A stretch of 64,000 nucleotides of DNA from NCBI GenBank assembly GCA_013822735.1, contig PNKZ01000002.1:124001-188000 (forward strand), read 5' to 3'. This document shows, piece after piece, positions 4,745-54,074 of the stretch. This stretch comes from Pirellula sp. (GTDB lineage: Bacteria > Planctomycetota > Planctomycetia > Pirellulales > PNKZ01). The stretch's first letter is position 1, and each line of letters starts with the position of its first letter. The notes under the pieces are model-generated. The model saw nothing but the letters and a program-made list of their open reading frames with translations, made no database searches and was not told the origin of the DNA. The translations under genes were made by a program, and so were the position numbers.

Positions 4745-4772
4745 GTTCGCGGCGTCTTCGGCTACGGCTAAT

Positions 4773-16366: not shown

Positions 16367-16933
16367 GGCAATTCATCGCTTGTCACAGGTTTAGCTGTAC
16401 GGAACGACGGGTCGATCTCAAATCAAAAACGATGGCCTGACTTTCGTCAAGCCAATTGCAGTTCCAACTGTCCAGCGGCGCAACTCACTTGTCCGAGTGG
16501 TCCGAGTCCGGAAGTTAAGGCGGTTCGACGAGCCGGCGTTATCGTCAAACATCGCGAGTCTTGAGACGGTGTTTGAGTTCGAGGAAGCAGCCGAAAGTTA
16601 GCGGTGACTTGTGTTTTCGATTGCCGGATTTCGACGCAACGTCGTAACCCTCAGAGTTTGATGAGGTCGGAAGTTAAGGGATTGCTCCCTAACTTCGTAC
16701 CATCCGCACGCGAAGGATTTCGCAACGTCGCGTGTGCGGCGGCAACGAATTTTTCAAGGAGACCGAAGGAGATGAATCGATAGGGCGGCATTTACTCACG
16801 CGTTCGTGAGGCTGAACGCCAGTTAGCCGAGTTCGGCATTCTCTAATCCTGGGATCGGTAATCGAGGCTGACGTCTCCCGCAACGCGTTGCTGCGTCGAG
16901 AACTGTCGGCCATTTTTTGGGGAGATATTCTCG
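16367..16933. other. Gap with two short direct repeats
   Basis: No gene is supported. CGGAAGTTAAGG occurs near 16508 and CGGAAGTTAAGGG near 16669, about 160 bp apart, and a related CCGAAAGTTAGCGG lies near 16590. These could be binding sites for a regulator of the gene at 16934, but three loose matches are weak evidence. Confidence 0.3.
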
Positions 16934-33726: not shown

Positions 33727-34330
33727 GGCTTTCCTTTCTGGCCTCAACTAGTTGTCGTGTTCTGAAACGGGACTAATCCACATGGTCCGTACAATTTGCT
33801 ACCTAAGGCGCGGCAGAATTCATAGCAGGACCACATACGCAAAAAGCATCGCGCCCAACCCGCGTCCGTAACCACCAGTACAACGGTTCACGATCTAATT
33901 TAGATACAGCGTGAGGGCACAAGTCAACTATTTAGAGGGGGTGTTTCTCCACCTGTGCCCGACGTCGAGATTTACACAGAAACTCATAAGCTGTCGATGA
34001 ATTTAAGACTCGATCCAAGGTGGGAATCGAAAGAATCAAACTCGCCGAACGCGGTTTCGCATAATCTTGATAGATGTGACCGTGCTCTAACACGATATCG
34101 GAATTGCCATCTAGTGGGCCGCTACGAGGCAGATTCGGAGTGCGTGTCGCGCTGCTATTCACAACTTTACGCGCTGCGGTCACATCGGCCGTCGAAGCAT
34201 AAAACCGGGCACCCGACCCAAACATGAACTCGGCCTGCGTAGCGCCTCGGCGAGCCGGCCTTACGGATCAGCGCTCAGAACGTGCTGAGGATGCAACAGG
34301 ATATTGAAATCACGGCAAAGCTCCTGGGAT
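33727..34330. other. Gap upstream of the triad
   Basis: Short frames on both strands between 33930 and 34230 lack ribosome sites and protein-like composition. The region close to 33727-33800 should contain the triad promoter; no boxes can be placed with confidence. Confidence 0.3.
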
Positions 34331-37421: not shown

Positions 37422-37656
37422 AGGGCCTCCGAAAAGAATGATGAAAGGGTCGAGTTTGCCGCCTACAAGGGCGAAACGTGTGAACGTCTGAGAGTTACGC
37501 ACTCGCTCACTTATGATGACGCGCCTTGGAGCTCGATTTAGCTCCCGCTGAGCCTTCGCGGCGACGCGATTGATCTTCGGGCGGCTGCTGTCGTCGCAGT
37601 TCGCCGCTGCCTATAATCCCGGTTCACTTTGCACTCACCGACGACCGTATAGCAGC

Positions 37657-40059
37657 ATGGCTCTCAAGAAATCCGAACTCTACTCGTCGCTGTGGTCCAG
37701 TTGCGACGAACTCCGCGGCGGCATGGATGCCAGCCAGTACAAGGACTACGTCCTCGTACTGTTGTTCATCAAGTACATCAGCGATAAGTACGCCGGGCAG
37801 CCTTATGCCCCGATCACGATCCCCAAAGGAGCAACTTTCGCCGACATGGTCGCCCTCAAGGGCAAGCCCGACATCGGCGACAAGATCAACAAGAAAATTA
37901 TCGGACCGCTGGCCGGCGCCAATAAGCTGTCCGACATGCCCGACTTCAACGACGCGACGAAGCTCGGCGACGGCAAGGAAAAGGTCGACAAGCTCACGAA
38001 CCTGATCGCGATCTTCGAGAACCCGGCCCTCGACTTCTCGAAGAACCGGGCCGACGGCGACGACATCCTTGGCGACGCTTACGAATACCTGATGCGGCAC
38101 TTCGCCACGGAGAGCGGTAAGTCGAAGGGGCAGTTCTACACGCCCGCTGAGGTGAGCCGCATAATGGCCCAAATCCTCGGAGTCCACGAAGCCAAGACCA
38201 CGCCGAAGACGACCGTCTACGACCCGACGTGCGGCTCGGGGTCGCTGCTCCTGAAGGTTGCCGACGCGGCGACCACCAAACTCACGCTCTACGGGCAGGA
38301 AAAGGATGCGGCCACCAGCGGCTTGGCCCGCATGAACATGATCCTGCACAACAACCCGGGCGCCGTCGTTGAGCAGGGTAACACGCTGACCGACCCCAAA
38401 TATAAGGACGGCGCGTCGCTCAAGACCTTCGACTTCGTCGTCGCCAATCCGCCGTTCTCCGACAAGCGTTGGAGCACCGGCCTCGACCCGAACAACGATT
38501 CCTTCGATCGGTTCCAATCCTTCGGCACTCCGCCGGCCAAGCAGGGAGACTATGCCTACCTGCTGCACATCGTGCGGTCGCTCAAGAGCACCGGCAAAGG
38601 GGCGTGCATCCTGCCGCACGGTGTCCTGTTTCGCGGAGGCGCCGAGGCCGTGATTCGCAAGAACCTCATCAAGAAGGGCTACATCAAAGGGATCATTGGC
38701 CTGCCGGCGAATCTATTTTACGGCACCGGCATCCCGGCCTGCATCATCGTCATCGACAAAGAACACGCCGGCTCCCGCAAGGGAATCTTCCTCGTCGATG
38801 CGAGCGGCGGTTACTTGAAGGACGGGCCGAAGAACCGTCTCCGTGCCCAAGACATCCACCGCATCGTCGATGTTTTCACCAAGCAGACCGATACTCCGCG
38901 GTTCGCCCGCATGGTCGGCATCGACGAGATCGAGCGGAACGACTTTAACCTGAACCTGCCCCGGTACATCAACAGCCAAACGCCCGAGGATCTGCAAGAC
39001 ATCGCCGGGCACTTGCAAGGGGGCATCCCTACGCGCGACGTCGATGCCCTCGATCGCTACTGGGACGTCTGCCCGAAATTACGCAAGGCGTTGTTCAAGG
39101 CGAACCGTTCGGGCTACGTCGATTTGGCCGTCGCGAAGTCGGACATCAAGACGACCATCTACGGGCATCCGGAGTTCAGCACGTTCATCGAGGACATGAA
39201 CGCTCACTTCGCCGCCTGGCGAACGGCGGCGGTGAAGAAACTCAAGGGGCTCAAGCCCGGCTTCCATCCCAAGGAAGTAATCGCCGAGTTAGCCGAAGAA
39301 CTGCTCGCACACTACGAAGGCCGGCCGCTCATCGACGCCTACGACGTCTATCAGCACCTGCTGGATTACTGGGTCGAGGCGATGCAAGACGACTGCTACC
39401 AAATCGCCGCCGACGGCTGGAAGGCGGCGACGTATCGCGTGATCGTGAAGGACAAGAAGGGGAAAGAAAAAGACAAAGGCTGGGCCTGCGACCTGGTGCC
39501 GAAGCCGCTCATCGTGGCCCGGTACTTTGCAACGGAGCAGGCCGAGATCGAAAAGCTCGCAGGTCTGTTGGAAAGCGCCACGGCGGCGCTAATCGAGATG
39601 GAAGAAGAGCACGGTGGCGAGGAAGGCGCTTTCGCCGAGTTGGAAAAGATCAATCTCGGCACGGTGAAGGCCCGCCTTAAGGAACTGACAGAGGGGGGCG
39701 AACTCGGCGACGACGAGATCAAGATTCTCAAGAAGTATCTGGTTTTGTGCGAGAGCGAGATTCGGCTGAAGCGCGACCTCGCGGAGAAGGAAGAAGAACT
39801 CGACGCCGCGGCCTATGAAAAATATCAGCCGCTAAAGGAATCTGACATAAAGACGCTCGTCGTCGAAGACAAGTGGCTCTCTGCCCTCGACGCCCGTATC
39901 CACGGCGAAATGGAACGCGTCAGTCAACAACTTACGACCCGCGTGAAAGACCTTGCCGAGCGATACGAGACTACGTTGCCGAACTTGGCCGCCCGCGTCA
40001 CCGACTTGGAGGCAAAGGTGAACGGTCACCTGAAGAGGATGGGCTTCGCATGGATATAA
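37657..40059 (+). CDS. hsdM: Type I restriction-modification methylase subunit HsdM (800 aa)
   Basis: This is an N6-adenine methyltransferase: N-terminal helical HsdM_N domain (SSLWSSCDELRGGMDASQYK), SAM motif YDPTCGSGSLLLKV (about 188-201) and catalytic NPPF (about 264). It protects host DNA and forms the core of the restriction complex with HsdS. At 800 aa it is longer than classical HsdM (about 500). The additional C-terminal 300 residues are helical and end in coiled coil (QLTTRVKDLAERYETTLPNL). ATG 37657 starts the family-typical MALKKSELYSSLW; an upstream in-frame start at 37570 is unlikely. It overlaps hsdS by 10 bp. It is the first gene of a five-gene operon. Confidence 0.95.
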   Translation: MALKKSELYSSLWSSCDELRGGMDASQYKDYVLVLLFIKYISDKYAGQPYAPITIPKGATFADMVALKGKPDIGDKINKKIIGPLAGANKLSDMPDFNDATKLGDGKEKVDKLTNLIAIFENPALDFSKNRADGDDILGDAYEYLMRHFATESGKSKGQFYTPAEVSRIMAQILGVHEAKTTPKTTVYDPTCGSGSLLLKVADAATTKLTLYGQEKDAATSGLARMNMILHNNPGAVVEQGNTLTDPKYKDGASLKTFDFVVANPPFSDKRWSTGLDPNNDSFDRFQSFGTPPAKQGDYAYLLHIVRSLKSTGKGACILPHGVLFRGGAEAVIRKNLIKKGYIKGIIGLPANLFYGTGIPACIIVIDKEHAGSRKGIFLVDASGGYLKDGPKNRLRAQDIHRIVDVFTKQTDTPRFARMVGIDEIERNDFNLNLPRYINSQTPEDLQDIAGHLQGGIPTRDVDALDRYWDVCPKLRKALFKANRSGYVDLAVAKSDIKTTIYGHPEFSTFIEDMNAHFAAWRTAAVKKLKGLKPGFHPKEVIAELAEELLAHYEGRPLIDAYDVYQHLLDYWVEAMQDDCYQIAADGWKAATYRVIVKDKKGKEKDKGWACDLVPKPLIVARYFATEQAEIEKLAGLLESATAALIEMEEEHGGEEGAFAELEKINLGTVKARLKELTEGGELGDDEIKILKKYLVLCESEIRLKRDLAEKEEELDAAAYEKYQPLKESDIKTLVVEDKWLSALDARIHGEMERVSQQLTTRVKDLAERYETTLPNLAARVTDLEAKVNGHLKRMGFAWI

Positions 40060-41297
40060 AGCCGAAGTTCAAGCAGACCGAAATTGGCTGGATCCCAAAA
40101 GATTGGCGAGTCCAATCGCTTAGAGATTTGGGCTATCCTGTGCGCGGCAGTTCTCCCCGACCAGCCGGTGATCCTCGATACTTTAGTGGTTCCTTCATAC
40201 CTTGGCTGACGGTCGCCTCACTGACAGGCCTCTCATCCAGCAAGCTGATTGTCACGGAGACCTCCGACTTCTTGACGGCTGAAGGGGCAGAACTTAGCCG
40301 AACGCTGATGCCTGGGACGTTAATAATCGCGAACAGCGGCGCTACTTTAGGGGTCGCCAAGTTATTAGGAATTAAATGCTGTGCGAACGACGGAATCGCA
40401 GCCCTGCTTAACTTGAGTAAGGACGCCGATCCCCGATACCTCGCCTATTTCATAAACACCAAAACGGATTACCTTCGGAACCATGTGGCCACGGGAAACG
40501 GTCAGCCAAATCTCAACACGAAGTTGATTGGGAATTTCAAACTGCCTTTACCACCAATGAAGGCGGAACAGGAAGCAATTGCGGGGGCGCTCGGGGATGC
40601 AGATACGCTGATCGACGCGTTGGAGCAACTCGTCGCCAAAAAGCGGCAGATCAAGCTTGTAGCGATGCACGAACTCCTCACCGGCCGCAAACGCTTGCCC
40701 GGCTTCCGCACCAAGTGGGATAAGGTCCGAATTACGGACGTCGCGAAACTCGAAAGTGGACATACACCTAGCCGACGCGAGCCAAGATACTGGAACGGTG
40801 GCGTGCCGTGGGTGTCTCTCCACGACAGCAAGAAATTGGAGGTCAACGAGATAGTCGAGACGGAGTTGACCGTCAGTGAACTGGGGCTTGCGAATTCATC
40901 AGCACGATTACTTCCAGCGGGCACAGTGGTTTTTTCGCGTACGGCTACGATCGGAAAGTCGACAGTCCTTGGCCTACCGATGGCGACTAGCCAAGATTTT
41001 GCCAACTACATCTGCGGCTCCAGAATTCACAATCATTTTCTGGTGGAACTCTTTCGGTCGATGTCCGAAACGTGGACGAGCCTGATGGCGGGAAGCACGC
41101 ACAATACCATCTACATGCCCACATTCCGAGCACTCGAAATCTCGTTGCCGCCGATCGACGAACAGATAAGTATCGTCGGCGGCCTACGAGACATGGACGC
41201 GGAGATCACCGCGATCGAGGCAAAACTCGCCAAGGCTCGACAGGTTAAGCAGGGAATGATGCAAGAACTTCTCACCGGGAGGATCCGCCTCGTATGA
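40050..41297 (+). CDS. hsdS: Type I restriction specificity subunit HsdS (415 aa)
   Basis: There are two target-recognition domains, each followed by a conserved helix: LGDADTLIDALEQLVAKKRQ then MHELLTGRKRLPGF in the middle, and LRDMDAEITAIEAKLAKARQ then MMQELLTGRIRLV at the end. The near-repeat of the helices is the usual internal duplication that gives a bipartite target site. Recognition sequence cannot be read from the protein. ATG 40050 overlaps the hsdM stop by 10 bp, and its own stop overlaps the next start by 4 bp (ATGA). Confidence 0.94.
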   Translation: MDIKPKFKQTEIGWIPKDWRVQSLRDLGYPVRGSSPRPAGDPRYFSGSFIPWLTVASLTGLSSSKLIVTETSDFLTAEGAELSRTLMPGTLIIANSGATLGVAKLLGIKCCANDGIAALLNLSKDADPRYLAYFINTKTDYLRNHVATGNGQPNLNTKLIGNFKLPLPPMKAEQEAIAGALGDADTLIDALEQLVAKKRQIKLVAMHELLTGRKRLPGFRTKWDKVRITDVAKLESGHTPSRREPRYWNGGVPWVSLHDSKKLEVNEIVETELTVSELGLANSSARLLPAGTVVFSRTATIGKSTVLGLPMATSQDFANYICGSRIHNHFLVELFRSMSETWTSLMAGSTHNTIYMPTFRALEISLPPIDEQISIVGGLRDMDAEITAIEAKLAKARQVKQGMMQELLTGRIRLV

Positions 41298-43165
41298 GCA
41301 CGATCACACCGCACTATCGCACCGTTAAAGATCTGCTCCAGAGCCAGTCGTTCTCCATTGACGAGTATCAACGGGAATACAAGTGGGAGCAGAAGAACAT
41401 CGAGGAGTTGTTATCCGACCTTCGCGACAAGTTCATCAGCTCGTACCAGCCCGGTCATGAAACGACCAAGGTCAACGACTACGAAGACTATTTCCTTGGG
41501 TCAATTATTGTCAGCAAGCGCGGCGGGAAGCGTTTCTTGGTCGACGGTCAACAGCGAGTGACATCGCTAACACTGCTGCTCATCTATCTGTATCGTGCCG
41601 CCGAAGAGCAAGAACTGCCGGTTAAGAGTAGCCTCGCGCCGCTGATCTATTCCGACAGTTTCGGTAAGCCGCGATTCAATCTCGATATCGTCGAGCGCCT
41701 GCCCGTCATCGAGGCGCTGTTCAAGGGAGAAGAGTTCACGCCGGACGGCAAGGAAGAATCAATCCAGACGATGTACGCACGCTATCAAGACATCGAGCGG
41801 ATTGATCCTGCCGATGAATTCAAGGAAGCCTTGCCGCATTTCATTTACTGGCTGATGAACAAGGTCGGGCTTATCGAAATCGCTACCGACAACGACAACT
41901 ATGCATACGCCATTTTCGAGACTATGAACGACCGGGGAAAGCCGCTAAGCCCCGTGGACATGCTCAAAGCCTATCTACTAGCTCCCATCGAAGACGAAGA
42001 CAAACGGCGAAACGCGAACCAAGTCTGGAAAAAGCAAGTCTTGGAACTCATTTCGTGGCAAGGCGAGCACGAGGCGGAACGAGATGCCAACTGCATCAAG
42101 GCTTGGCTGCGCGCCCAATATGCGGAGAGCATTCGCGACCGCAAAGCCGGTGCCACGGACAAAGATTGGGAGCTGATCGGCACGACATTTCATCGCTGGG
42201 TACGGGATAACCAAGCTCGCTTGAAAGTCGGCGGGGAATCACAGAATCTCGCCCTAATCACTCAGAAGTTCCCGTTCTTTAGCAAGGCCTATTTGACGAT
42301 TTACGATGCGAGCCACACCTATACGCCGGGGCTGGAGGCAGTGTTTTACAACGCCCACAACGAGTTCACCTGGCAAAACACAGTGCTGCTCGCGCCGCTG
42401 ACGAGTGAAGACTCCGACGACGTCGTCCGCCGAAAGCTGGCGGTCACGGCAACGTTTCTCGACATCTGGCTGATGCGACGGACGACGAATTATATTCGTG
42501 TCGGCTATTCGAGCGCGAGCTACACCATGTACCTGCTGTGCAAAGACATTCGTGGCAAGTCGCTGCCGGATTTGGTGCAGACTCTTTTCGATAAGCTTTC
42601 GCAGGACGACGTCACTTTCGACGGAAGCACGCAGAAAGGGCGGACGGGGATCGGAGAACTGGGCCTCAATCAGTTCAGTCGCAAGTACATTTATCACATG
42701 CTGGCCAGAATCGCGGCGTACGTGGATCTCGGTGCCGGCCGGCCGGACTTGTTCGATAAGTACGTGGATCGGGATTGCAAGAACCCTTGCGACATCGAAC
42801 ACATCTGGGCCGACGACCGGTCAGCGTATCAAGCAGATTTTGCGACGGAACAGGAATTTCAGGACTTCCGAAACCATGTCGCGGGGCTACTGCTGCTCCC
42901 CGCCGACGTAAATCGTAGTTATCAGGCGAAGCCGTTTCAGGAAAAGGCTCCGCACTACGCAAAGCAGAATCTTTATGCGGCAAGCCTGACCGCCGGAGCC
43001 TACGAACATCAACCGCAGTTCGAGCAGTTTCGACAGGCTCACGGTTTCGCGTTCAAGCCGTATGCGCAATTCGGCAAGAACGAACAACTCGAACGACGAG
43101 AACTGGTCAAACAGTTGGTGAAAAGGATCTGGTCGCCTGAACGCCTGAAGGAGTACTTAACGTGA
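41294..43165 (+). CDS. GmrSD-like protein: DUF262 plus C-terminal DUF1524 HNH (623 aa)
   Basis: The N-terminal DUF262 domain begins DLLQSQSFSIDEYQREYKWE and holds the ParB-like DGQQRVTSLTLLL motif (about 82-94), thought to bind and hydrolyse nucleotide. The C-terminal DUF1524 domain has DIEHIWADD (about 499) and a later NHVAGLLLLPADVNRSYQAK, the modified HNH endonuclease signature. In GmrSD and BrxU this combination cuts modified phage DNA. The gene sits between hsdS and hsdR with 4-bp overlaps on both sides, so it is expressed as part of the type I operon. It could extend the system to DNA that escapes HsdR through base modification; that is inference. Confidence 0.9.
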   Translation: MSTITPHYRTVKDLLQSQSFSIDEYQREYKWEQKNIEELLSDLRDKFISSYQPGHETTKVNDYEDYFLGSIIVSKRGGKRFLVDGQQRVTSLTLLLIYLYRAAEEQELPVKSSLAPLIYSDSFGKPRFNLDIVERLPVIEALFKGEEFTPDGKEESIQTMYARYQDIERIDPADEFKEALPHFIYWLMNKVGLIEIATDNDNYAYAIFETMNDRGKPLSPVDMLKAYLLAPIEDEDKRRNANQVWKKQVLELISWQGEHEAERDANCIKAWLRAQYAESIRDRKAGATDKDWELIGTTFHRWVRDNQARLKVGGESQNLALITQKFPFFSKAYLTIYDASHTYTPGLEAVFYNAHNEFTWQNTVLLAPLTSEDSDDVVRRKLAVTATFLDIWLMRRTTNYIRVGYSSASYTMYLLCKDIRGKSLPDLVQTLFDKLSQDDVTFDGSTQKGRTGIGELGLNQFSRKYIYHMLARIAAYVDLGAGRPDLFDKYVDRDCKNPCDIEHIWADDRSAYQADFATEQEFQDFRNHVAGLLLLPADVNRSYQAKPFQEKAPHYAKQNLYAASLTAGAYEHQPQFEQFRQAHGFAFKPYAQFGKNEQLERRELVKQLVKRIWSPERLKEYLT

Positions 43166-46100
43166 GCGACGTCGGCAAACCGGAACGGGCCACGCAGGAG
43201 CGTATCATCGCTTTGTTCCGCGACGAACTCGGCTATCGCTTCCTCGGCGACTGGACCGACCGCGCCGGCAACAGCAACATCGACGAGAAGCTGCTGACCG
43301 ACTGGTTGACGAAGCGGGGCGTCACGCCGCCGCAGATCAGCATCGCCCTGCACAAGCTGCGCACCGAGGCCGACAACCACCACCGCGGCCTCTATGGGAA
43401 CAATCAGGCCGTCTACAACTTGCTCCGTTACGGCGTCGGCGCGAAGGTCGAGGCCGGCAAGGTCACGGAGTCGGTCCATCTGATCGACTGGGAGAAGCCG
43501 GAGAAAAACGATTTCGCCGTCGCCGAAGAGGTGACTCTAAAGGGAGGCTGGGAGCGGCGGATTGATCTCGTGCTGTACGTCAACGGCATCGCGCTGGGCG
43601 TGCTGGAACTGAAGAACAGCCGCGTCAGCATCGGCGACGGCATTCGGCAAAGCCTCTCAAATCAGCAGCCGGAGTTCAACGCCTGGTTTTTCAGCACGGT
43701 GCAGTTCGTGTTCGGCGGCAACGACTCGCAGGGGTTGCAATACGGCACGATCGGCACCCAGGAGAAATACTTCCTCAAGTGGAAAGAAGACGAGGACGAC
43801 GACGCCCGCTACAAGCTGGACAAGTACCTGCTCAAGATGTGCGATAAGCGGCGGCTGATCGAACTGCTGCACGATTTTGTGCTGTTCGACGGCGGCGTGA
43901 AGAAGCTACCGCGAGTCCACCAATACTTCGGCATCAAGGAGGCGCAAAAGTACGTCCGGCAAAAGAAGGGGGGCATCATTTGGCATACGCAGGGAAGCGG
44001 CAAGAGTATCGTCATGGTGCTGCTGGCGAAGTGGATCTTGGAGAACAACCCGAATGCCCGCGTGGCGATCATCACCGACCGCGACGAGTTGGATAAGCAG
44101 ATCGAAGGAGTCTTCGGCGCCGCCGGCGAGACGATCTACCGCACGAGTAGTGGTCGCGATCTCCTAGCTCAGCTCGGCCAAGCCAAGCCGCGGCTGCTGT
44201 GCTCGCTGGTCCACAAATTCGGTAAGCGAGGCAAAAAGCAGAGCGATGCTGAGTTCGAGCGGTTCATCAAGGAACTCGAAGCCCAGCCGTGCCATACCAT
44301 AGGCGAGCTGTTCGTGTTCGTGGACGAGTGCCACCGTACCGAGAGCGGCCGACTTCACAAGACAATGAAGGCCGTGCTTCGCAATGCCGTGTTTGTCGGC
44401 TTCACCGGCACGCCGCTATTGAACCAAGACAAGAAGACGAGCCTGGAGGTCTTCGGCGAGTATATCCACACCTACAAGTTCAGCGAGGCGGTCGAAGACG
44501 AGGTCGTACTTGATCTGATCTACGAGGCGCGGGACATCGACCAGAAGCTCGGCTCGGAAACGAAGATCGACGCTTGGTTCGAGGCGAAAACCAAAGGTCT
44601 GAACGACTGGCAAAAAGCGGAACTGCGGGCCAAGTGGGGCACGATGCAGCAGGTGCTCAGTTCCAAGTCGCGGATGGACCGCGTTGTGGCCGACATCGTA
44701 TTCGACTTCAGCGTTAAGCCACGACTCTCGAACGAGCGCGGCAATGCGATCTTGGTCGCATCGAGCATCTACGAAGCTTGCAAGTATTACACGCTCTTCC
44801 AAAAGACTCCGTTTAAGGGGAAGTGTGCGGTCGTCACATCGTACGACCCGCAGGCTCGCGACATTACCCTGGAAGAAGTTGGCGGCAATACCGAGACCGA
44901 CAAGCAGGTGGTGTTCAACACGTACACCGAACTGCTGAAGGACGTCGTCCCGAAGCCCGGCATGACTAAGACTGAGACCTACGAAGACTGGGCCAAGTCG
45001 CTGTTCAAGGACGAGCCGGCGAACATGAAGCTGCTCATCGTCGTCGACAAGCTGCTGACCGGGTTCGACGCACCACCGTGCACGTATCTCTACATCGACA
45101 AGACGATGCAGGACCACGGCCTCTTCCAAGCGATCTGCCGGACGAACCGCCTCGACGGCGACGACAAAGACTTCGGGTACGTCGTCGATTACAAGGATCT
45201 GTTCAAGAAGGTGGAGAAGGCGATCGCGGTCTATACGTCGGAACTCGATCACAGTTCCGGCGGCGCCGACCCCGAGGTGCTGTTGCAGGACCGGTTAACC
45301 AAGGGTAAAGAACGACTCGACGGCGCTATCGAGGCCCTGTCGCTTCTGTGCGAGCCGGTCGAGCAACCGCGGGGCGAACTAGAGCACATCCACTATTTCT
45401 GCGGCAACACGGAAAAGCCGACCGACCTTCACGAACGCGAACCGCAGCGTTCTCAGCTGTACAAGTCGGTCGTGGCGCTGGTGCGGGCCTTCGCCAATAT
45501 CTCCGACGAATTGGAGCAGGCTGGATACGGCGAGTCTGACGTCGCCCGCATCAAGTCGCAACTAGAACACTTCTTGAAGGTGCGGGAAGTCGTGCGGTTG
45601 GCCAGCGATGAGATCTTGGACTTGAAGCCCTATGAAGCCGACATGCGGCATCTGATAGACACCTACATCGAGGCCTCGGAGCCCCGCAAGATTTCACCGT
45701 TCGACGGGATCGGCCTGCTCGACCTGATCGTGAACACAGGAATCGCCGCCGCCATCGCCGACAAGCTGGGCGAACTCAAGGGCAACCGGGACGGCATCGC
45801 CGAAGTCATCGAAAACAACGTCCGCAGCAAGATCATCAAGGAGCACCTCAACGATCCCGCGTATTACGAAACGATGTCGAAGCTGCTCGACGAGATCATC
45901 GCCGCCCGTAAAGCGAAGGCTGTCGAGTACGAAGACTACCTCAAGCAGATCGCGGAGCTAGCCAAACGGGTGCAGGCAGGTAAGGCCGACGACATGCCGC
46001 AAGAACTCGACACGCCGGGCCGCCGGGCCCTCTACAACAACTTGAAGCGGGATGAGGAGTTGGCGTTACAAGTCGACGATGTCGTAAAGACCGTGCGTCA

Positions 46101-46224
46101 TGACGGCTGGCGAGGCGTGCAGGCCCGCGAGCAAATCATCAAGTCCGCACTCTACGGCGTGTTACAGGACGCCGGTGAAGTCGAACGAATCTTCTCCATC
46201 ATCAAGGCTCAGCCCGAATACTAA
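43162..46224 (+). CDS. hsdR: Type I restriction endonuclease subunit HsdR (1020 aa)
   Basis: The start is GTG 43162, inside the stop of the previous gene. The N-terminal PD-(D/E)XK nuclease has RRIDLVLYVNGIALGVLELK (about 132-151). The SF2 motor follows: Walker A GGIIWHTQGSGKS (about 273-285), DECHRT (about 387) and GFTGTPLL (about 413). Later helicase motifs include LLIVVDKLLTGFDAP and FQAICRTNRLDGDDK. A C-terminal helical region would contact HsdM. It translocates DNA and cuts at collision. Complete and apparently intact. Confidence 0.95.
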   Translation: MSDVGKPERATQERIIALFRDELGYRFLGDWTDRAGNSNIDEKLLTDWLTKRGVTPPQISIALHKLRTEADNHHRGLYGNNQAVYNLLRYGVGAKVEAGKVTESVHLIDWEKPEKNDFAVAEEVTLKGGWERRIDLVLYVNGIALGVLELKNSRVSIGDGIRQSLSNQQPEFNAWFFSTVQFVFGGNDSQGLQYGTIGTQEKYFLKWKEDEDDDARYKLDKYLLKMCDKRRLIELLHDFVLFDGGVKKLPRVHQYFGIKEAQKYVRQKKGGIIWHTQGSGKSIVMVLLAKWILENNPNARVAIITDRDELDKQIEGVFGAAGETIYRTSSGRDLLAQLGQAKPRLLCSLVHKFGKRGKKQSDAEFERFIKELEAQPCHTIGELFVFVDECHRTESGRLHKTMKAVLRNAVFVGFTGTPLLNQDKKTSLEVFGEYIHTYKFSEAVEDEVVLDLIYEARDIDQKLGSETKIDAWFEAKTKGLNDWQKAELRAKWGTMQQVLSSKSRMDRVVADIVFDFSVKPRLSNERGNAILVASSIYEACKYYTLFQKTPFKGKCAVVTSYDPQARDITLEEVGGNTETDKQVVFNTYTELLKDVVPKPGMTKTETYEDWAKSLFKDEPANMKLLIVVDKLLTGFDAPPCTYLYIDKTMQDHGLFQAICRTNRLDGDDKDFGYVVDYKDLFKKVEKAIAVYTSELDHSSGGADPEVLLQDRLTKGKERLDGAIEALSLLCEPVEQPRGELEHIHYFCGNTEKPTDLHEREPQRSQLYKSVVALVRAFANISDELEQAGYGESDVARIKSQLEHFLKVREVVRLASDEILDLKPYEADMRHLIDTYIEASEPRKISPFDGIGLLDLIVNTGIAAAIADKLGELKGNRDGIAEVIENNVRSKIIKEHLNDPAYYETMSKLLDEIIAARKAKAVEYEDYLKQIAELAKRVQAGKADDMPQELDTPGRRALYNNLKRDEELALQVDDVVKTVRHDGWRGVQAREQIIKSALYGVLQDAGEVERIFSIIKAQPEY

Positions 46225-46940
46225 TGGCGGCTCGAATTCAACTCGGCGAGCTGGCGATCAGGGTGGCGTTCAAGGAGATCAAGAACGTCCACCTGAGCGT
46301 CCATCCGCCCGGTGGCCGGGTCAGTATCTCGGCCCCGCGGCACATGAACCCGGATTCGATTCGGGTGTTCGCGATCTCGAAGCTCGACTGGATCAAGCGG
46401 CAGCGAAAGAAGATCCAAGAGCAGGAGCGGGAACCGAAACGCGAGTTCATCGACCGCGAAAGCCACTACGTTTGGGGCAAGCGATACTTACTCTCGGTCG
46501 TGGAGCGGAATGAGCCGCCGGCCGTGGAACTAAAACACAACCGCCTGTTGCTGTACGTTCGTCCTGGGACGAACCGGAAAAAGCGGGCGGAGACCCTCGC
46601 GGCTTGGCATCGCGAGCAAATCCGGCTGGCTACGCCCGAGCTTATCGCTAAATGGGAACCGCGAATTGGTGTCGAGGTCGACCGGTTCTACGTGCAGCGA
46701 ATGAAGACCCGTTGGGGCAGCTGCAACCCGGCGAACCATAGCATTCGACTGAATACCGACTTGGCAAGGAAGCCGCGAGACTGCCTCGAATACATCGTCG
46801 TTCACGAGATGTGCCACTTGCTGGAGCCGACCCACAACGGCCGTTTCGTGGCGCTGATGGACCGATTCATGCCGCGGTGGCAGTTTTACCGCGACGTACT
46901 GAACCGGCTACCGGTTCGACATGAGGATTGGGAGTATTGA
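46224..46940 (+). CDS. YgjP-like (DUF45/M48-related) zinc metallopeptidase (238 aa)
   Basis: The signature HEMCHLLEPTHNGRF (about 193-207) carries the HExxH zinc site, with the usual preceding RMKTRWGSCNP (about 158-168). The family is a small, gluzincin-like peptidase often placed last in type I restriction operons, where it may process or remove the complex. The start codon overlaps the hsdR stop by one base (TAATG), so it belongs to the same transcription unit and is translationally coupled. Length is normal. Substrate unknown. Confidence 0.92.
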   Translation: MAARIQLGELAIRVAFKEIKNVHLSVHPPGGRVSISAPRHMNPDSIRVFAISKLDWIKRQRKKIQEQEREPKREFIDRESHYVWGKRYLLSVVERNEPPAVELKHNRLLLYVRPGTNRKKRAETLAAWHREQIRLATPELIAKWEPRIGVEVDRFYVQRMKTRWGSCNPANHSIRLNTDLARKPRDCLEYIVVHEMCHLLEPTHNGRFVALMDRFMPRWQFYRDVLNRLPVRHEDWEY

Positions 46941-46982
46941 GCGTGCCCGGCCTCGAACCATGAACCACTTTTCAGTTTGTGC

Positions 46983-48284
46983 ATGAAATTAATGGCAAGC
47001 TTCATCCATACAGCTATTGAGGCACCACCCAAAACAGTGAAAGTGCTGGTCGACTTTTACGACGAGATTGAAAAGAAGGCATTCCTTTCGAACCCGTTTA
47101 GCGACCGCTTGAAAGAACTCCCAACGACTCTTGAAATTCCAACAGCCGACCTTTGCACGTACTACCTATACTACAAAAGGCGCGACGGAATACCCGGGTT
47201 TTCCAACCATGAAGACATTGCAAAGAAGTGGCATCATGCGCTCTATGAGTTCGACGGCCAGACTACATTCGTTGACGGAACAGTGCGACTGTTGCAATCC
47301 CAAGGTACGGACGGTGGAGTCATCGAGGGCATTGGCGAATCGATCGGCCTTGCCGTGCCGAGCGACCTTCATAATCTCTCGAACGCAGATTGGCTGCGCG
47401 TGCCCGAATCGAATCGCAAGAAAACACTCGACTTCTGGCACCCGTGGACGGCCTCTGACGGGAGACGATTCGTTCAAGTCGAAAACAAGGGGTCAGGTCC
47501 AGTTGATGGAGATTACAAGTCGTCGTCAATTTCGAAGCATAAAGCAAGCATCAAAGCTAAAAAATCTGAAGCAACGGACGACGAAAAGAAATCATCTATT
47601 CTGTATGGGACGATCGGCGTCATCAGTGAGCAAGGAATTGCCCGTTGCTGGCTCGTCGACCCGCCTCCAAACGTCCCGGATGATCCTCTCCGTTTTCAAA
47701 TCATTGCACGTATAGAATTTACAGCCCGACTAGTGTCCTTCATCGCTGGCCGATCGACGCTCGCTTCTGCTTTACAGACGCGCCTTGCTGCTCTTAAAGC
47801 ATTGACCTCGATTTCGGAACTCGACGGCATTCCAATTCGAAAGGGAAATGGCGAACCATTTTCTAGTGAGGTTTTCGATTTCGGACGGGATCATAATCCA
47901 TGGCTCGCCGGCAAATCAGTCGTTCACGACAAACCTGTTGGCGGCCAACTGATTCCCGTCGACAGGAGTGGGATCTTTTTCTTCGGACTTCGCGAAGAGC
48001 TTGTGGCAAGTGCCGTGCTACAGTCATTTGACTTGGCACGCACTCTGAGCTTTGAGCCGGCAATTACTGACGAATTGATCGATTGTGTTGTTCCTTCAGG
48101 AAGGTTTCGCAATTCTTTTGAGCGACTCTATAACATTCCGACGCAGGAACGCTTCGAAAGTGGTGGCTATGTGCGCTTCCAGATGGCAAGTCGACTGATT
48201 CAAAGCACGGCAGGGCTAGTCTTTGGGGTTCTCGAAGTGCCGGAGTCCTGGCAATTGCCGAGCGGCGAACTATTTCCGAAATAA
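46983..48284 (+). CDS. Unknown protein (433 aa), possible nuclease
   Basis: ATG 46983 is one of three possible starts (TTG 46977, ATG 46992); none has a clear ribosome site. There is no membrane segment. One segment, TLDFWHPWTASDGRRFVQVE followed by NKG, could be a D...E-x-K pair of a PD-(D/E)XK fold, and the surrounding alternation of strands and helices would fit. The C-terminal half has no recognisable motif. It starts 42 bp after the YgjP gene in the same direction and converges with the methylase-AlbA fusion at 48434. It may be the last cargo gene of the type I operon, or a nuclease partner of the fusion. Low confidence in any function. Confidence 0.5.
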   Translation: MKLMASFIHTAIEAPPKTVKVLVDFYDEIEKKAFLSNPFSDRLKELPTTLEIPTADLCTYYLYYKRRDGIPGFSNHEDIAKKWHHALYEFDGQTTFVDGTVRLLQSQGTDGGVIEGIGESIGLAVPSDLHNLSNADWLRVPESNRKKTLDFWHPWTASDGRRFVQVENKGSGPVDGDYKSSSISKHKASIKAKKSEATDDEKKSSILYGTIGVISEQGIARCWLVDPPPNVPDDPLRFQIIARIEFTARLVSFIAGRSTLASALQTRLAALKALTSISELDGIPIRKGNGEPFSSEVFDFGRDHNPWLAGKSVVHDKPVGGQLIPVDRSGIFFFGLREELVASAVLQSFDLARTLSFEPAITDELIDCVVPSGRFRNSFERLYNIPTQERFESGGYVRFQMASRLIQSTAGLVFGVLEVPESWQLPSGELFPK

Positions 48285-48433: not shown

Positions 48434-50767
48434 TCACAGCCTGAATCGTGTTTTCACATACTCATACTGCTGCGCACCTCTTAACAACTGGGACGATGGA
48501 GTTGTTCGCACATAGAACTCGTTGTTGTCCAAGAAGCATGGGCGGTTGGATGGATTGCACTGAACTACCAACACCTTCTGCTCATCGGCTTCCATAAATC
48601 GGTAGTTGATATCTGGAATAATCTCAGTGCCGATGCGGGTCATCACCAAGTTTTTGAAGTGCAACAAACACTTGTCCAAGTCGCTGCCGTGAAGCACTTG
48701 CAAGTCAACACAAAGGCCAGCAATTGTTCCGTTATTACGAACACCGATCAGCAACACGCCACCGTCCGTATTTAAGAACGCAACAATCGTCTTCAGAATC
48801 TTCTCTTCGGTGGGCTTGTTCCTTACCCGCAATTTCAAATCGAGGCTGAGCGACTCTTTAAACTCTACGGTCTTTGATTCACCTTCGCGTATTTTGCTTC
48901 GCACGTAATCGGCATCTGACAATTCGCCAAGAATTAGCAGCATTGAATCTAGTTGCTTTTGAAGTCCCTTTAGGCCGGTCGGATTCAGTGACAATCCATG
49001 ATCGACTTCGCTGATCGCCTCTTTTAGCGAAGAGAGTTTACGGTGCGTCGCGACGATTTCTTGCTGCGATTTGAGATCCGGCAGCGCAATTATGCATTCT
49101 TGTAGATCGTCCTTGTTTAGTCGCTGGACGACACTTCCCATAGCAAGTAGGGAGAGCGCGTGTTGGCCAACGGATGTGCCCAAAAACTGGGCGACGTATG
49201 CATTGATCGCTCGTTCATTTAGGATGACCTGATAGTAGCGATCATGTTTTCCGTCAAGTTCTTCGAGGCGGTCGGTTATCCGTTTTCCCACAATCGGGAT
49301 GTAGACCGCGTTCGGAACGTCCTCGAATGCACCGCCTCGCTTCGCCGCATTGACCTCAACCGCCAGCTCTTTGATTGTGTGTTTGGCAAAGTTGTCGTAA
49401 TGAGAGACGAGCCCTGCCAGTGATGAAGAATCTGCATATCGAGGAATGTTTAAGTTGTACGAATTAGCTCGTATTGCCTCGATGTCTACAACATGAGAGA
49501 AGCGATCGGTTTCCGAATATGCATCGAATGCAGTCACTATTCGGGCGACGTCTTCAGGTCGAAGCTTGTTCACCCGTCCATCGCGCTCGAAATCACGATC
49601 TGCGTTGATGAAGAGAACTTTGCCGACTCGCTCAAGAGGTTTCTTTTTGTTGATGATCAATACAGCCGCAGAAGCTTCTGACCCATAGAAGAGCCTTGGT
49701 GCAAGTCCGATGACGGCTTCCAGCAAGTCATCGTCCAAAATCCCTTGCCGAATCCTTTCCTCTTTGCCGCCACGAAAGAGGACGCCATGTGGTGCTACTA
49801 CCGCCATTCGCCCGTGTGGCTTGAGCGAGGCAATCATGTGCTGAAGGAATGCAAAGTCGCCGTTGTGTTTTGGGGGTGGGCCGTAGCGGAACTGGGCGTA
49901 TGGATCATGCTCCAAATCAATGCCACGCAGCGATACTGAGAATGGCGGGTTAGCGATCACACGATCAAACTGTGTTAAGCGTCCTTGATCGACAAAGCGT
50001 GGATGAGACAGGGTGTTACCAAGTAATAGTAGTGCGTCGGTTTCTCCATTCACGGCAAGATGCATCCGGCCGATGGATAAGATGTCTTGATTAATCTCCT
50101 GTCCAAAAAGTGAAAGTCCGTGCTTACCTTGCTGGGTGCTGGAAACATAACGCACTGAACTTAACAAGACGCCTGCTGTACCAACGCATGGATCGTAGAC
50201 GCTCATTCCACGTTGCGGCTTCACAAGCTCGACTAGAAGCGTCGTGATTTCCTTCGGCGATGAAAACTCCCCCGAACGCTGACCGGATGCACGGGCAAAA
50301 CGATCGAGTAGGAATTCGTAGACTTTTGCAAACGTGTCATCTGCTGCTTCCGCAGAGACTTGAAAAAAGAGTCTCAATAAGTCGATAAGCGGTGGCTTCT
50401 CCGGCCTGTTGTAATCGGTCTGGGTAACAGTGCCTCTGAGATGTTCGTTCTCAGATTCAATGGCACACATCACCCTGTTTAGCGCATCGCCGAGGAGCGA
50501 CGGAGGTACCGAAAACAGGTGATCCCACTTTGCGATGTCAGGGAGTCGCAATGTTTGACCAGACTCATTTAGCTTTGTGCTTTGTTGGTTCGCGTGGGCA
50601 AGAAACACCAATCCAAGAACAATCCTTGCATATTCGTCGAATTTCAACCCTGAGTTGATCCGAAGCTCCTCTACGACTTTCCAAGTCAACCGTCCAAGGT
50701 CGTCGATCGTACGGCGTTGTTGTTCACCTTCGATTGGCTTCGTTTTATTTGTGCCAAGAGTATCCAT
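48434..50767 (-). CDS. HsdM-like adenine methylase fused to an AlbA_2 (Schlafen-type) domain (777 aa)
   Basis: Residues about 1-150 form an HsdM_N-like helical domain. The methylase core follows, with VYDPCVGTAGVLL (about 186-198) and catalytic NPPF (about 272). Residues about 500-610 hold a tail with coiled coil (QQEIVATHRKLSSLKEAISE) that resembles the conserved helix of an HsdS half. The last 150 residues start ESKTVEFKESLSLDLKLR and include LKTIVAFLNTDGGVLLIGVR, the AlbA_2 / Schlafen divergent AAA_4-type domain. I know AlbA_2 in defence and regulatory proteins but not usually attached to a type I methylase. ATG 50767 is preferred to TTG 50800. No hsdS or hsdR lies beside it. Confidence 0.82.
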   Translation of the reverse strand: MDTLGTNKTKPIEGEQQRRTIDDLGRLTWKVVEELRINSGLKFDEYARIVLGLVFLAHANQQSTKLNESGQTLRLPDIAKWDHLFSVPPSLLGDALNRVMCAIESENEHLRGTVTQTDYNRPEKPPLIDLLRLFFQVSAEAADDTFAKVYEFLLDRFARASGQRSGEFSSPKEITTLLVELVKPQRGMSVYDPCVGTAGVLLSSVRYVSSTQQGKHGLSLFGQEINQDILSIGRMHLAVNGETDALLLLGNTLSHPRFVDQGRLTQFDRVIANPPFSVSLRGIDLEHDPYAQFRYGPPPKHNGDFAFLQHMIASLKPHGRMAVVAPHGVLFRGGKEERIRQGILDDDLLEAVIGLAPRLFYGSEASAAVLIINKKKPLERVGKVLFINADRDFERDGRVNKLRPEDVARIVTAFDAYSETDRFSHVVDIEAIRANSYNLNIPRYADSSSLAGLVSHYDNFAKHTIKELAVEVNAAKRGGAFEDVPNAVYIPIVGKRITDRLEELDGKHDRYYQVILNERAINAYVAQFLGTSVGQHALSLLAMGSVVQRLNKDDLQECIIALPDLKSQQEIVATHRKLSSLKEAISEVDHGLSLNPTGLKGLQKQLDSMLLILGELSDADYVRSKIREGESKTVEFKESLSLDLKLRVRNKPTEEKILKTIVAFLNTDGGVLLIGVRNNGTIAGLCVDLQVLHGSDLDKCLLHFKNLVMTRIGTEIIPDINYRFMEADEQKVLVVQCNPSNRPCFLDNNEFYVRTTPSSQLLRGAQQYEYVKTRFRL

Positions 50768-50983: not shown

Positions 50984-51211
50984 CTATCCGAGAACTCCGG
51001 CGATTCTTAGCGTGACGAAGGTGAATTGAAGATGCAAGAAGCCGAGATAGTTCGCCGCTTTCTTTTCCCAGCGGATGAGCAGTCGTCGGGCTCGATTGAG
51101 CCAGGAGTGGGTGCGTTCGACTTTCCAGCGACGCGCTTTGCCGCGGCGATACTTCGGCTTGGGCGGTTCGTTCGCCTTGCGCGGAACGTGCGGCACGTAA
51201 TCGGATAGCCT
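50984..51211 (-). pseudogene. IS5-family transposase fragment (C-terminal end)
   Basis: The frame reads ...DYVPHVPRKANEPPKPKYRR then ARRWKVERTHSWLNRARRLL then IRWEKKAANYLGFLHL, the C-terminal part of an IS5-type DDE transposase with the ERTHSW glutamate region. It is blocked upstream by TAG (51212-51214), and the N-terminal two thirds are absent or unrecognisable. No terminal inverted repeats were found. It marks past transposon activity between the methylase fusion and the DUF5677 gene. Confidence 0.75.
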
Positions 51212-51445: not shown

Positions 51446-52456
51446 ATGCGGCCCTTACTTCCATTCCCCGACGAAGATGAACGCCGTGAGGCGGTGCAGC
51501 AGGCGAACGCCGTTGAATTTGAGTTTGCCGAGCGTGTGTATCGCGTCTGGCTCGAGATGAGCAAGAGACCGTCTCGCCCCTGCACCGCCCTTCATGTGTT
51601 CTACGTTGCGATGCTCCTCAATCTTCAGGCGTGTCGCATCTACCGCTCCATTATTGAGGAGTGCAGCCGAGCGGAAGGCGTCGGCGCGATTATCCTCTCA
51701 CGCTCTCTCTTCGAGACGATTGCCGCCCTAAAGTTCGTGCTTGCACGTCATGTCCGCATTTATACCGAGCCCCTGGTCAAAAACGGCGTGCACAAAAAGG
51801 ACGCCAACGGCGACCTTACTTATTCCGTGCAATGCGAACGGCGGCCCTCCCGTAAGAGTCCGAAGCCAGCGACGCCGACACCGAAGAAACGCTTGAAGAG
51901 TTCGCACAAGTTTCCGTCCGTCGAGGAGCGTGCGTGGTTCTATGTCGCCAGCCAGGCATTCAACGAACCGCGTCGCTACAACAAGATGATCCAGCTCCGC
52001 GGACTCAAACGTGTCTCAAAGCATACCCTAAAGAAGTTGGACGACACATTGACCACTGCATACGCTAAGCGCATCGGCGACGATTGGGCGTACGTGCTGA
52101 AGAAGGAGAAAAACTACTCCGGACTCAAAATCTACCAGCTCGCAGAAGTCCTTGGGAAAGAATTCGTCCTCATCTACAAGTCCCTCTACGACATCTATTG
52201 CCAAGTGACGCACGCGAGCGATGCAGTCCGGCACGGCGATTTCGACGACGACAACCAGCTCCGGCCGAAATACTTTTCCGACGACGGCGAGATTGGCGGC
52301 ACTCTCAACGCTGCTACGGCGATGATCCTCACCAGCATGACCGTTTGCCGCGACTATTTCGACTTCGGCCTCATTAACAACACGATGATTAACGGTCTCG
52401 GTGAGGAGTACCGGAAACGCATCCTCGTCGAAAGCCGCAAGCCGTTTGATTCCTGA
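51446..52456 (+). CDS. DUF5677-like protein (336 aa)
   Basis: ATG 51446 follows GGAG by 5 bases. The helical segments ILSRSLFETIAALKFVLARH and IYKSLYDIYCQVTHASDAVR match the look of DUF5677 proteins, a family of helical proteins of unknown function that is frequent in defence and mobile regions. The middle contains a basic linker (RRPSRKSPKPATPTPKKRLK). No catalytic motif is evident. It stands alone, after the transposase remnant and before the decayed DUF4145 gene. Confidence 0.6.
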   Translation: MRPLLPFPDEDERREAVQQANAVEFEFAERVYRVWLEMSKRPSRPCTALHVFYVAMLLNLQACRIYRSIIEECSRAEGVGAIILSRSLFETIAALKFVLARHVRIYTEPLVKNGVHKKDANGDLTYSVQCERRPSRKSPKPATPTPKKRLKSSHKFPSVEERAWFYVASQAFNEPRRYNKMIQLRGLKRVSKHTLKKLDDTLTTAYAKRIGDDWAYVLKKEKNYSGLKIYQLAEVLGKEFVLIYKSLYDIYCQVTHASDAVRHGDFDDDNQLRPKYFSDDGEIGGTLNAATAMILTSMTVCRDYFDFGLINNTMINGLGEEYRKRILVESRKPFDS

Positions 52457-52483
52457 CCGTCGCTATAAATGAAAAGTGGAAAT

Positions 52484-53010
52484 CTAACTTCCCGATAGCT
52501 TCCCCCTAGCCCGCTTCGGTTTGCTCTTTCGGTTCTTCAGTTTCTTAAGCAGTTCCGGCTGCTCGTAGACCTGCTTGAAAACGTGCTAAATTGCATCGAT
52601 GCATTCGCCGACCAAATCAAGCGGAGGTTCATCCATCTGGTGGACGGCATCATTGCCGAGTTTTCGAAGCTCATGTAACACCTTTGCCTGATTCTTGCTG
52701 ACGTTGCCCTTGTCGCAAAGAGTGTTGAGTTTTCCCTCAATTGTTGAGCGCGAGGATCTTATTGCTCGTTCTGTCGCGAACCACTTTGCCTCGATCAGTG
52801 CGGTTCTTGCCCGTCAAGATTTTGAGGTTGAGGCAAACACCTTCGACTAGCAGGCGTATCCCGGCGGCAGCAAGAATATTCAATCCGTTGTTGAAAGCCG
52901 AGATAGTTTGCTGATAAACGGACTCATCCGATCCATCGTCGGGCAGGTTCTTGAAGACCAGCGGGTATTTTCGGAGGTTGTTCCGAAGGCCGTGGGGTCA
53001 GTAGACAGTT
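52484..53010 (-). pseudogene. Decayed DUF4145-like gene
   Basis: No single open frame exists, but joined frames give a coherent protein: SDESVYQQTISAFNNGLNIL, then AAAGIRLLVEGVCLNLKILT; after a frameshift near 52750, STIEGKLNTLCDKGNVSKNQ, then AKVLHELRKLGNDAVHQMDE, then DLVGECIDAI, a TAG at 52586-52588, and HVFKQVYEQPELLKKLKNRK. The LR-LGN-H pattern and preceding helix are typical of DUF4145, a domain common in restriction and defence proteins. Left end is the stop at 52484; right end is approximate. Two lesions (frameshift and nonsense) mark it as dead. Confidence 0.7.
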
Positions 53011-53132
53011 GCCGTCACCGAACTTGGTCGATAAAGCCAGCGATTCTTCCGTTACGGTCGTTGATTGCCCTGCTAGGCCGCGTTAACTTGATCGCACCGA
53101 ATGCACACTTTCGGTCCACCATTGAGGATCAC

Positions 53133-54074
53133 ATGAGCCGCGACTTACTAACGAACCTGCTCTCGGTGGGGCTCGACTCTGCCCTCGCACAAAAGGCACT
53201 GGATGCTGGGCTGACTCTCACCAAACTTCGCGAGGCAGGGACAAAGGAGCTAAAAGCATCATTCTTCGACAACGAAGTTAAGCTGATAAAAGCCGCGGTT
53301 AAACGCAAGGAGATAGACGACGCCGTCATACTTCAGTTGGTTCAGAAGTGCGATTGGTCTTGTTGTATCTGTTGGAAAGTCGACGACCGAGTGCCAGTAA
53401 TTCTCCATCACATCGTTCCGCACTCCAAAACCGCCGACGACTCTTACGACAACTTAGTCGTCCTTTGTCTGAATCATCACGGAATGGCGCACAGCAAATG
53501 GGAAATCTCACGACACCCGACGACGCCGGAACTTATCAAGTCGCGGAAGAGCGAATTCGAAGAGGCGGTTGCAGGTTTTAAGAAGGGCACCCGTCCCGTA
53601 CCGGGGCGCGAGGGCGATGGCAAAGACCCTGCGTCGCATTCGGACGTGAAGGCGCTAACCTTGATTGCAGGCTTTCTATCGCGACCTGCGGTCTCCCGGT
53701 CATTTGTTGCCGAAGGAAACATGCAGGACTTCTTGAGGGCCATGCAGGACGTGATACGCACGCTCAACACAGGCATCATGAAGACACGCGAAGGAGATGA
53801 GATCGATCGCACGAAGGCCGGACGGCAGTTTACCAATCCGACATGGCGCGAACGGCTAGGGTTACTCTCAAAGAACTTCGATTCAATAGCTGAACGTGTT
53901 CAGCTGGCGGTTCGAAACAACGAGTTGCAGCTAGACCCCGTGAGTGGTTTCTACAGCTTCAATAATTGTATGCTTCCCGATGAGATCGACGCTGCACGCC
54001 ATTCCGCAATCAGGTTGCTCAACAGCGTCCTGTTCGAAGCTGGCATCGACCCGGTACGAGGTCCAGGCGGCTAA
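53133..54074 (+). CDS. HNH endonuclease-domain protein (313 aa)
   Basis: ATG 53133 follows GAGGATC; an open extension back to 52908 overlaps the DUF4145 remnant and is unlikely to be translated. The HNH core is CCICWKVDDRVPVILHHIVP followed by HSKTADDSYDNLVVLCLNHH (about 77-116), with zinc-binding cysteines and the HH pair. The first 65 residues form a helical domain (LLTNLLSVGLDSALAQKALD). The C-terminal 150 residues are helical and unrecognised. It is a plausible nuclease effector at the end of the defence block. Confidence 0.75.
   Translation: MSRDLLTNLLSVGLDSALAQKALDAGLTLTKLREAGTKELKASFFDNEVKLIKAAVKRKEIDDAVILQLVQKCDWSCCICWKVDDRVPVILHHIVPHSKTADDSYDNLVVLCLNHHGMAHSKWEISRHPTTPELIKSRKSEFEEAVAGFKKGTRPVPGREGDGKDPASHSDVKALTLIAGFLSRPAVSRSFVAEGNMQDFLRAMQDVIRTLNTGIMKTREGDEIDRTKAGRQFTNPTWRERLGLLSKNFDSIAERVQLAVRNNELQLDPVSGFYSFNNCMLPDEIDAARHSAIRLLNSVLFEAGIDPVRGPGG

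Follow-up and report, generated by a model that had tools for sequence, protein, structure and literature searches.

What is the working part of a protein that joins a DNA methylase, half of a specificity subunit and a Schlafen-type AlbA_2 domain on one chain? The question is raised by a gene in the window, by which the whole stretch of 64,000 nucleotides analysed here is meant (Pirellula sp., GenBank assembly GCA_013822735.1, contig PNKZ01000002.1, positions 124,001 to 188,000). A first-pass annotation had described the gene product as a type I-like methylase fused to an AlbA_2 domain, standing without HsdR or HsdS. Here it is read, tentatively and with a chance that falls just short of even, as a Schlafen-type RNase effector on a scaffold derived from a type I methyltransferase, which would act as a back-up to type I restriction. 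One such polypeptide would tie together restriction-modification and Schlafen-type RNA cleavage, two antiviral worlds, and since methylase motifs are present in some natural forms and absent from others, the family offers a direct test of whether a suicide RNase can have a modification enzyme as its sensor.

Architecture and surroundings of the fusion gene

The reading frame runs unbroken on the minus strand from an ATG at 50767 to a stop at 48434 (Table 1), and its product was modelled over the whole length with AlphaFold2 at a mean pLDDT of 84.7. The HsdM core named in the first-pass annotation is borne out by both Pfam domains, with HsdM_N at 24.9 bits against a cut-off of 24.5, and by a fold search in which PacII M1 (7vs4_A) was the closest fold to the model (Z 46.2, rmsd 2.5 over 429 residues) and methylases filled the results. 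The N6 methylase fold is combined with SAM motif I and an NPP[FYW] motif, which in the family is the case for the window copy and the Scalindua protein (L062) only; the alanine in the glycine run of motif I is also present, in the alignment, in the HsdM-type proteins L018 and L030. The NCBIfam hsdM model TIGR00497 gives the fusion protein 160.5 bits, under the cut-off of 242.75, which the Scalindua protein passes with 250.3.

The HsdS-like half stood as well. Methylase_S is matched weakly by the single sequence at residues 523-580 (E 0.0014, under the Pfam cut-off), and the assignment becomes a firm prediction once 12 family members are aligned: a profile of their residues 449-777 matches EcoKI HsdS at 1.2e-12 through the recognition region, for which the model gives helices at 565-594 and 599-613. 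The methylase and one HsdS-type recognition domain therefore lie on the same chain, as in the Vibrio vulnificus YJ016 methylase (7eew), which matches the window model with Z 34.0 over 518 residues at an rmsd of 22.7, so that the domains are arranged differently in the window protein.

Table 1. Features of the fusion gene and its surroundings, in positions of the window
Feature	Position	Strand	Basis or remark
M - half-S - AlbA_2 fusion protein, 777 aa	48434..50767	-	ORF and translation; AlphaFold2 model
HsdM N-terminal helical domain, residues 28-122	50402..50686	-	Pfam PF12161 HsdM_N, E 3.5e-5
N6 adenine methylase domain, residues 142-448	49424..50344	-	Pfam PF02384 N6_Mtase, E 4.4e-88; PacII M1 fold match
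Motif I DPCVGTAG (SAM binding), residues 192-199	50171..50194	-	aligned with DPTIGSGG in L062
Motif IV NPPF (catalytic), residues 273-276	49940..49951	-	sequence and alignment
One target-recognition domain and helices, half an HsdS, residues 449-615	48923..49423	-	12-member profile; model
Schlafen AlbA_2 domain, residues 630-761	48485..48880	-	Pfam PF04326 SLFN_AlbA_2, E 1e-17
ExxxxExK motif ESKTVEFK (E630, E635, K637)	48857..48880	-	kept in 14/14 members
HsdM of neighbouring type I system	37570..40059	+	domain and family models
HsdS, two recognition domains	39873..41297	+	listed start overlaps hsdM; true start probably later
GmrSD / DUF262 protein, between hsdS and hsdR	41294..43165	+	Pfam PF03235 and PF07510
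HsdR	43162..46224	+	domain and family models
YgjP-like metallopeptidase	46224..46940	+	another beside the family gene in L067
DDE transposase remnant	50987-51211	-	PF13586, E 1.2e-9; just upstream of fusion gene

The C-terminal AlbA_2 domain, likewise named correctly at first sight, scores 65.2 bits against a Pfam cut-off of 25.3. Through this domain the 12-member profile matches the Schlafens SLFN12, 11, 8, 14 and 5, from 8.4e-7 (SLFN12, the best) to about 1e-4 and from a different stretch than the match to EcoKI HsdS; a profile of AlbA_2 alone also matches Schlafens. In a fold search made with the model of the relative L059, residues 391-552 matched the SAMD9 tRNase domain (Z 11.8), the SAMD9 DBD (DNA-bound domain; Z 12.0) and DIP2311 (Z 13.3), all middling values in the range of 11 to 13. 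The Schlafen profile matches and the fold match of L059 to the SAMD9 tRNase domain rule out the reading of the C-terminus as a plain piece of HsdS.

The ExxxxExK motif is the active site of SLFN14, in which E206, E211 and K213 are described as essential for RNA cleavage in the passages cited from PMC12215978. As judged from sequence, the earlier suggestion of a possible nuclease domain was right as a possibility. At the place of the SLFN14 tandem aspartates D248/D249 the window copy has R677/N678 and so lacks the pair; the Asp249 position is occupied by Asp in 11 of the 13 aligned members, and by Asn in the window copy (Asn678) and L060. According to the same passages, only some Schlafens conserve the tandem aspartates, changes of D248 and D249 in SLFN14 have a moderate effect on tRNA cleavage, and cleavage of 5S rRNA is residual with D249N and strongly reduced with D248A/N and D249A (PMC12215978).

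The fusion gene lies outside a type I operon (37570-46224) and convergent with it, 2.2 kb from the end of HsdR. YgjP and one further ORF (46977-48284, plus strand, 435 aa) stand between them, the latter with no Pfam, NCBIfam or PADLOC match at the limits used. The three-part architecture described by the first-pass annotation is therefore real, whereas the claimed absence of restriction and specificity subunits is contradicted by the HsdM-HsdS-GmrSD-HsdR operon on the opposite strand, and also by five relatives arranged in line with hsd genes; the operon rules out that the methylase stands alone with no restriction genes near it. A GmrSD gene is placed between hsdS and hsdR in the same arrangement at the Scalindua locus, which has the window's set of HsdM, HsdS, GmrSD and HsdR. 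In the 6.88 Mb of the host genome HSDR_N has two matches, one of them the window HsdR, and the latter had no match in the three genus and three family genomes sampled, in a search run without a positive control.

The G+C content is about 50% around the fusion gene against 60-63% at the window ends, a transposase remnant lies close by, and the recognition + AlbA_2 profile had no match in the three genus and three family genomes sampled; for these reasons the gene is read as horizontally acquired. The low G+C and the transposase remnant, together with Asn678, would also fit a decaying fusion that is functionless in the host genome. This we regard as very unlikely in view of 777 uninterrupted codons, the presence of both methylase motifs and of ExxxxExK, and 46% identity to the Scalindua protein of the same architecture. 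Promoter and terminator scans around the gene gave no more than shuffled sequences did, and the repeats there are short and mostly two-copy. Further along, at 51446-54074 (plus strand), are genes for a DUF5677 protein and for an HNH protein whose similarity to IscB is weak and below the cut-off. On the minus strand, 29551-33747 holds a row of ORFs that from their translations we take to be kinase-like, phosphatase-like and von Willebrand A-like.

Distribution of the family and retention of its parts

Together with the window copy, 13 further loci in several phyla make up a family of 14. A genome scan with the recognition + AlbA_2 alignment yielded 11 near-full-length loci (L057-L067) among the best 80 of 414 relatives, two of them (L060 and L061) identical over 9,086 bases, and searches in groups of genomes added L191 (genome G439) and L201 (genome G1535). 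The stretch common to L060 and L061 occurs in two metagenome bins assigned to different groups, one to Alphaproteobacteria and the other to Oligoflexales, a sign of a binning error. One of 72,556 plasmid records covers at least 80% of the query, that of Pseudoalteromonas nigrifaciens (NZ_CP011038, L032), with 24% identity over 741 columns. Its gene order is Mrr-like, M-AlbA_2, HsdM, HsdS, AlbA_2-HATPase and HsdR, the Mrr-like match being just under the Pfam cut-off. A SAVED protein with a two-transmembrane effector domain (16404-17474 of the locus) adjoins this operon.

The fusion family is rare, as had been supposed when the architecture was called uncommon. In the window's phylum the recognition + AlbA_2 part was matched over its whole length in 1/392 genomes, its own, by a single-sequence query at E 1e-5 in a search that included this genome and scored at most 5 candidates per genome. 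With the search centres included, the rates were 1/146 for the window's order, 1/75 for the class of Scalindua, 2/321 for the class of Lacimicrobium, 2/198 for the phylum of Chlorobium, 1/247 for the phylum of a Desulfococcaceae genome and 1/201 for that of an Anaerolineae genome; with the centres excluded there were 2 hits in 1,573 genomes, in groups that overlap, some genomes being counted more than once. The other rows of these searches contain AlbA_2 and at most some flanking residues, except L186, whose match begins at profile position 89 and which by eye resembles a GmrSD protein with AlbA_2.

Four scans of viral contigs, with the window protein and three family profiles, found no relative, and another family profile found two loci matching AlbA_2 only; in phage records the recognition + AlbA_2 part was unmatched. 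No NCBIfam model spans the family when the window protein, L059, L062, L064, L066 and L067 are searched, nor does a PADLOC model among the best 25 matches each of the window protein, its C-terminal part, L059, L064, L066 and L067. The NCBIfam and PADLOC matches listed fall in the methylase or recognition part, with the exception of a weak match, below the cut-off, in the AlbA_2 domain of L066. Membership in MADS is not supported, as the NCBIfam models for MAD2 and MAD5 give scores far below their cut-offs (NF047738, 53.7 bits against 720; NF047740, 22.1 bits against 400).

What the 14 members all keep is the ExxxxExK motif, whereas methylase motifs I and IV are intact in two, the window copy and the Scalindua protein. 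The Pseudoalteromonas methylase is full-length but degenerate (DPSFCIGK, FPPI), and the remaining 11 members have a truncated pseudo-methylase without a recognisable motif I and with, for example, GDLPLG at motif IV. The N-terminal part of the truncated members corresponds to the C half of the methylase (hhalign against true methylases, E 1.8e-5, probability 78%), and residues 14-221 of the L059 model (pLDDT 84.5) match HsdM with Z 15.2 and rmsd 3.3 over 202 residues. Among 13 members the best conserved part is AlbA_2, with a mean pairwise identity of 53.5%, followed by the recognition segments (38.4% and 37.5%) and the methylase C half (27.4%). A tree of the C-terminal part separates the window copy and L062 from the remaining 11 members of the alignment at a bootstrap of 100%; some branches within the family are poorly supported in the AlbA_2 tree (values down to 35), where L032 has a very long branch of its own. 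The ancestor would have had a whole methylase, with loss following later.

This uneven retention, 2/14 for the methylase motifs against 14/14 for ExxxxExK, means that the methylase is the dispensable part of the family. To speak of a methylase with an extra domain, as the first-pass emphasis did, probably puts the weight the wrong way round. The same counts bear on a plainer explanation, in which the protein is a self-contained DNA methylase, an orphan or alternative M/S unit of the neighbouring system, and AlbA_2 only adds nucleic-acid binding. Motif I and NPPF in the window copy and L062, the closeness of the fold to PacII M1 and the solved structure of a methylase whose chain includes one recognition domain (7eew) agree with such an enzyme; yet 12 members carry ExxxxExK without methylase motifs, and a pure binding domain need not retain all three catalytic residues, and we consider this explanation unlikely. 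Since its methylase motifs are still present, the window copy may also methylate DNA.

Linkage to restriction genes

Separate hsd genes were found at six of the 14 loci, namely the window, L032, L062, L063 (with L199), L066 and L067, the outermost hsd gene running off the end of the sequence examined in L062, L066 and L067; HsdM- and HsdR-like fragments at L057 are remnants. Outside the window, the family gene at each of these loci is co-directional with the hsd genes, at gaps of 46 bp (L032), 60 bp (L062) and 37 bp (L063) and with a 4-bp overlap in L066, while in L067 it comes after YgjP, which it overlaps as listed. The recognition domain of the window protein matched six neighbouring HsdS proteins only weakly (best E 6e-5), so that a shared specificity cannot be claimed. 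At the Scalindua locus, a SMODS nucleotide synthetase and a SLATT_4 effector (4128-5571), a pair that we take to be CBASS-like, lie directly upstream of the fusion gene, and the type I operon of L063 contains a 162-aa ORF (2213-2701) with a weak, below-cut-off match to the PBECR2 nuclease.

Two or more Hsd genes separate from the AlbA_2 ORF occurred at 4/10 family loci against 2/69 AlbA_2-only loci (L069 and L136; Fisher p 0.0018), with a threshold chosen after the table had been inspected and contigs of varying length. When loci with one weaker match are included the counts become 5/10 and 3/69 (p 0.0005), and when L070 is included, the AlbA_2 ORF of which is itself an HsdR, 4/10 and 3/69 (p 0.004). 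The loci compared come from one scan (best 80 of 414 relatives), with L060/L061 counted once; the window and L032, found otherwise, were excluded, as were L191 and L201, which come from other searches and have no hsd genes.

The available stretch holds no restriction genes at the other seven loci (L058, L059, L060, L064, L065, L191 and L201), two of which sit on short contigs (L058, 7.5 kb; L065, 5.3 kb), and coupling to restriction is therefore not universal. These loci would suit a one-gene switch for defence or stress that acts on its own, apart from restriction-modification, and in which the pseudo-methylase and the recognition domain would sense DNA sequence or methylation state and AlbA_2 would be the output, and so would the presence of the same AlbA_2 type on HsdR, GmrSD and dCache-like regions. 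Such a switch seems improbable to us, as the family is enriched beside hsd genes and the fragments at L057 indicate that lone copies may in some cases be what is left of a larger system.

The related proteins comprise HsdR with a C-terminal AlbA_2 (L069 3971-7480, L070 247-3753), dCache_1 sensor-like regions, under the Pfam cut-off, followed by a C-terminal AlbA_2 (L148, L160, L162 and L164), and AlbA_2 behind GmrSD. This recurrence suggests that HsdM, HsdR, GmrSD and Cache-sensor proteins use the AlbA_2 tail as an exchangeable output module; behind dCache-like regions, it would suit a regulatory rather than a lethal output.

Proposed mechanism and known systems

If the fusion protein is a back-up effector, its scaffold of HsdM and half an HsdS would hold the AlbA_2 domain silent while either reading DNA or docking to the type I complex next to it. 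Once restriction is neutralised, or foreign unmodified DNA builds up, the domain would cleave tRNA or another RNA, bringing the growth of the infected cell to a stop. We infer RNase activity, trigger, silencing, RNA target and physical coupling to the type I complex; the effector role and the restriction link are supported, at the level of sequence comparison, by motif conservation and gene linkage. In favour of the back-up effector are the loss of methylase motifs beside an invariant ExxxxExK, the stronger conservation of AlbA_2, the truncated pseudo-methylases, the profile matches to Schlafens and the fold matches of L059 to SAMD9, the enrichment beside type I genes and the five co-directional genes, and against it are the seven hsd-free loci, the convergent gene in the window, Asn678 and the dCache-linked AlbA_2 domains.

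A comparable logic is described in the passages cited for the anticodon nuclease PrrC, which EcoprrI, a type I enzyme, keeps silent until that enzyme is neutralised by a phage peptide (PMC2610378, PMC3874165), and a back-up effector role beside BREX has been proposed for Schlafen RNases (PMC12839542, in the part cited). By analogy, the same is proposed for the fusion protein, an RNase beside a type I system that would form a second line of defence. It is conceivable, and put forward with considerable reserve, that the whole family consists of DNA-sensing Schlafen ribonucleases in which a type I methyltransferase, often catalysis-less, is the sensor that would turn on RNA cleavage once restriction fails or unmodified DNA turns up, as an independent re-invention of the PrrC/EcoprrI logic. 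PrrC has a HEPN part. It also carries ABC-ATPase motifs (PMC2610378, in the part cited). Neither ABC ATPase nor HEPN parts had a Pfam match in the fusion protein at E <= 0.1, and membership in PrrC / RloC is not supported on this account.

With type I methyltransferases (HsdM2S; EcoKI, and PacII M1M2S as described in the cited part of PMC9613975) the fusion has the methylase fold and motifs in common; it differs by the added C-terminal AlbA_2, and most of its relatives have a dead, truncated methylase. With SLFN11/12/14, SLFN5, SLFN8 and the SAMD9 tRNase domain it shares, going by the profile matches and, for SAMD9, by the fold of the relative L059, an AlbA_2 with ExxxxExK, and it departs from Schlafens in its methylase-derived scaffold, its single AlbA_2 domain and, in the window copy, Asn at the SLFN14 D249 position. 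The GmrSD-AlbA_2, HsdR-AlbA_2 and dCache-AlbA_2 proteins have a related C-terminal module and a different N-terminal part. Methylases with a same-chain recognition domain, Schlafen effectors and restriction-linked RNases are already known separately; new are their combination and the loss of the methylase with retention of the nuclease motif. No description of an HsdM-Schlafen fusion was found among the titles, abstract openings and passages covered in the open PMC literature.

Proteins composed of a Schlafen RNase, a minimal histidine kinase and a wHTH occur in BREX (PMC12839542, in the part cited). Like the fusion, they place an AlbA_2 effector beside a modification system; the partner domains are other ones, the AlbA_2 of the fusion being C-terminal on M and half an S. 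The second AlbA_2 protein of the Pseudoalteromonas operon (AlbA_2 + HATPase_c_4) is of this BREX Schlafen-kinase kind.
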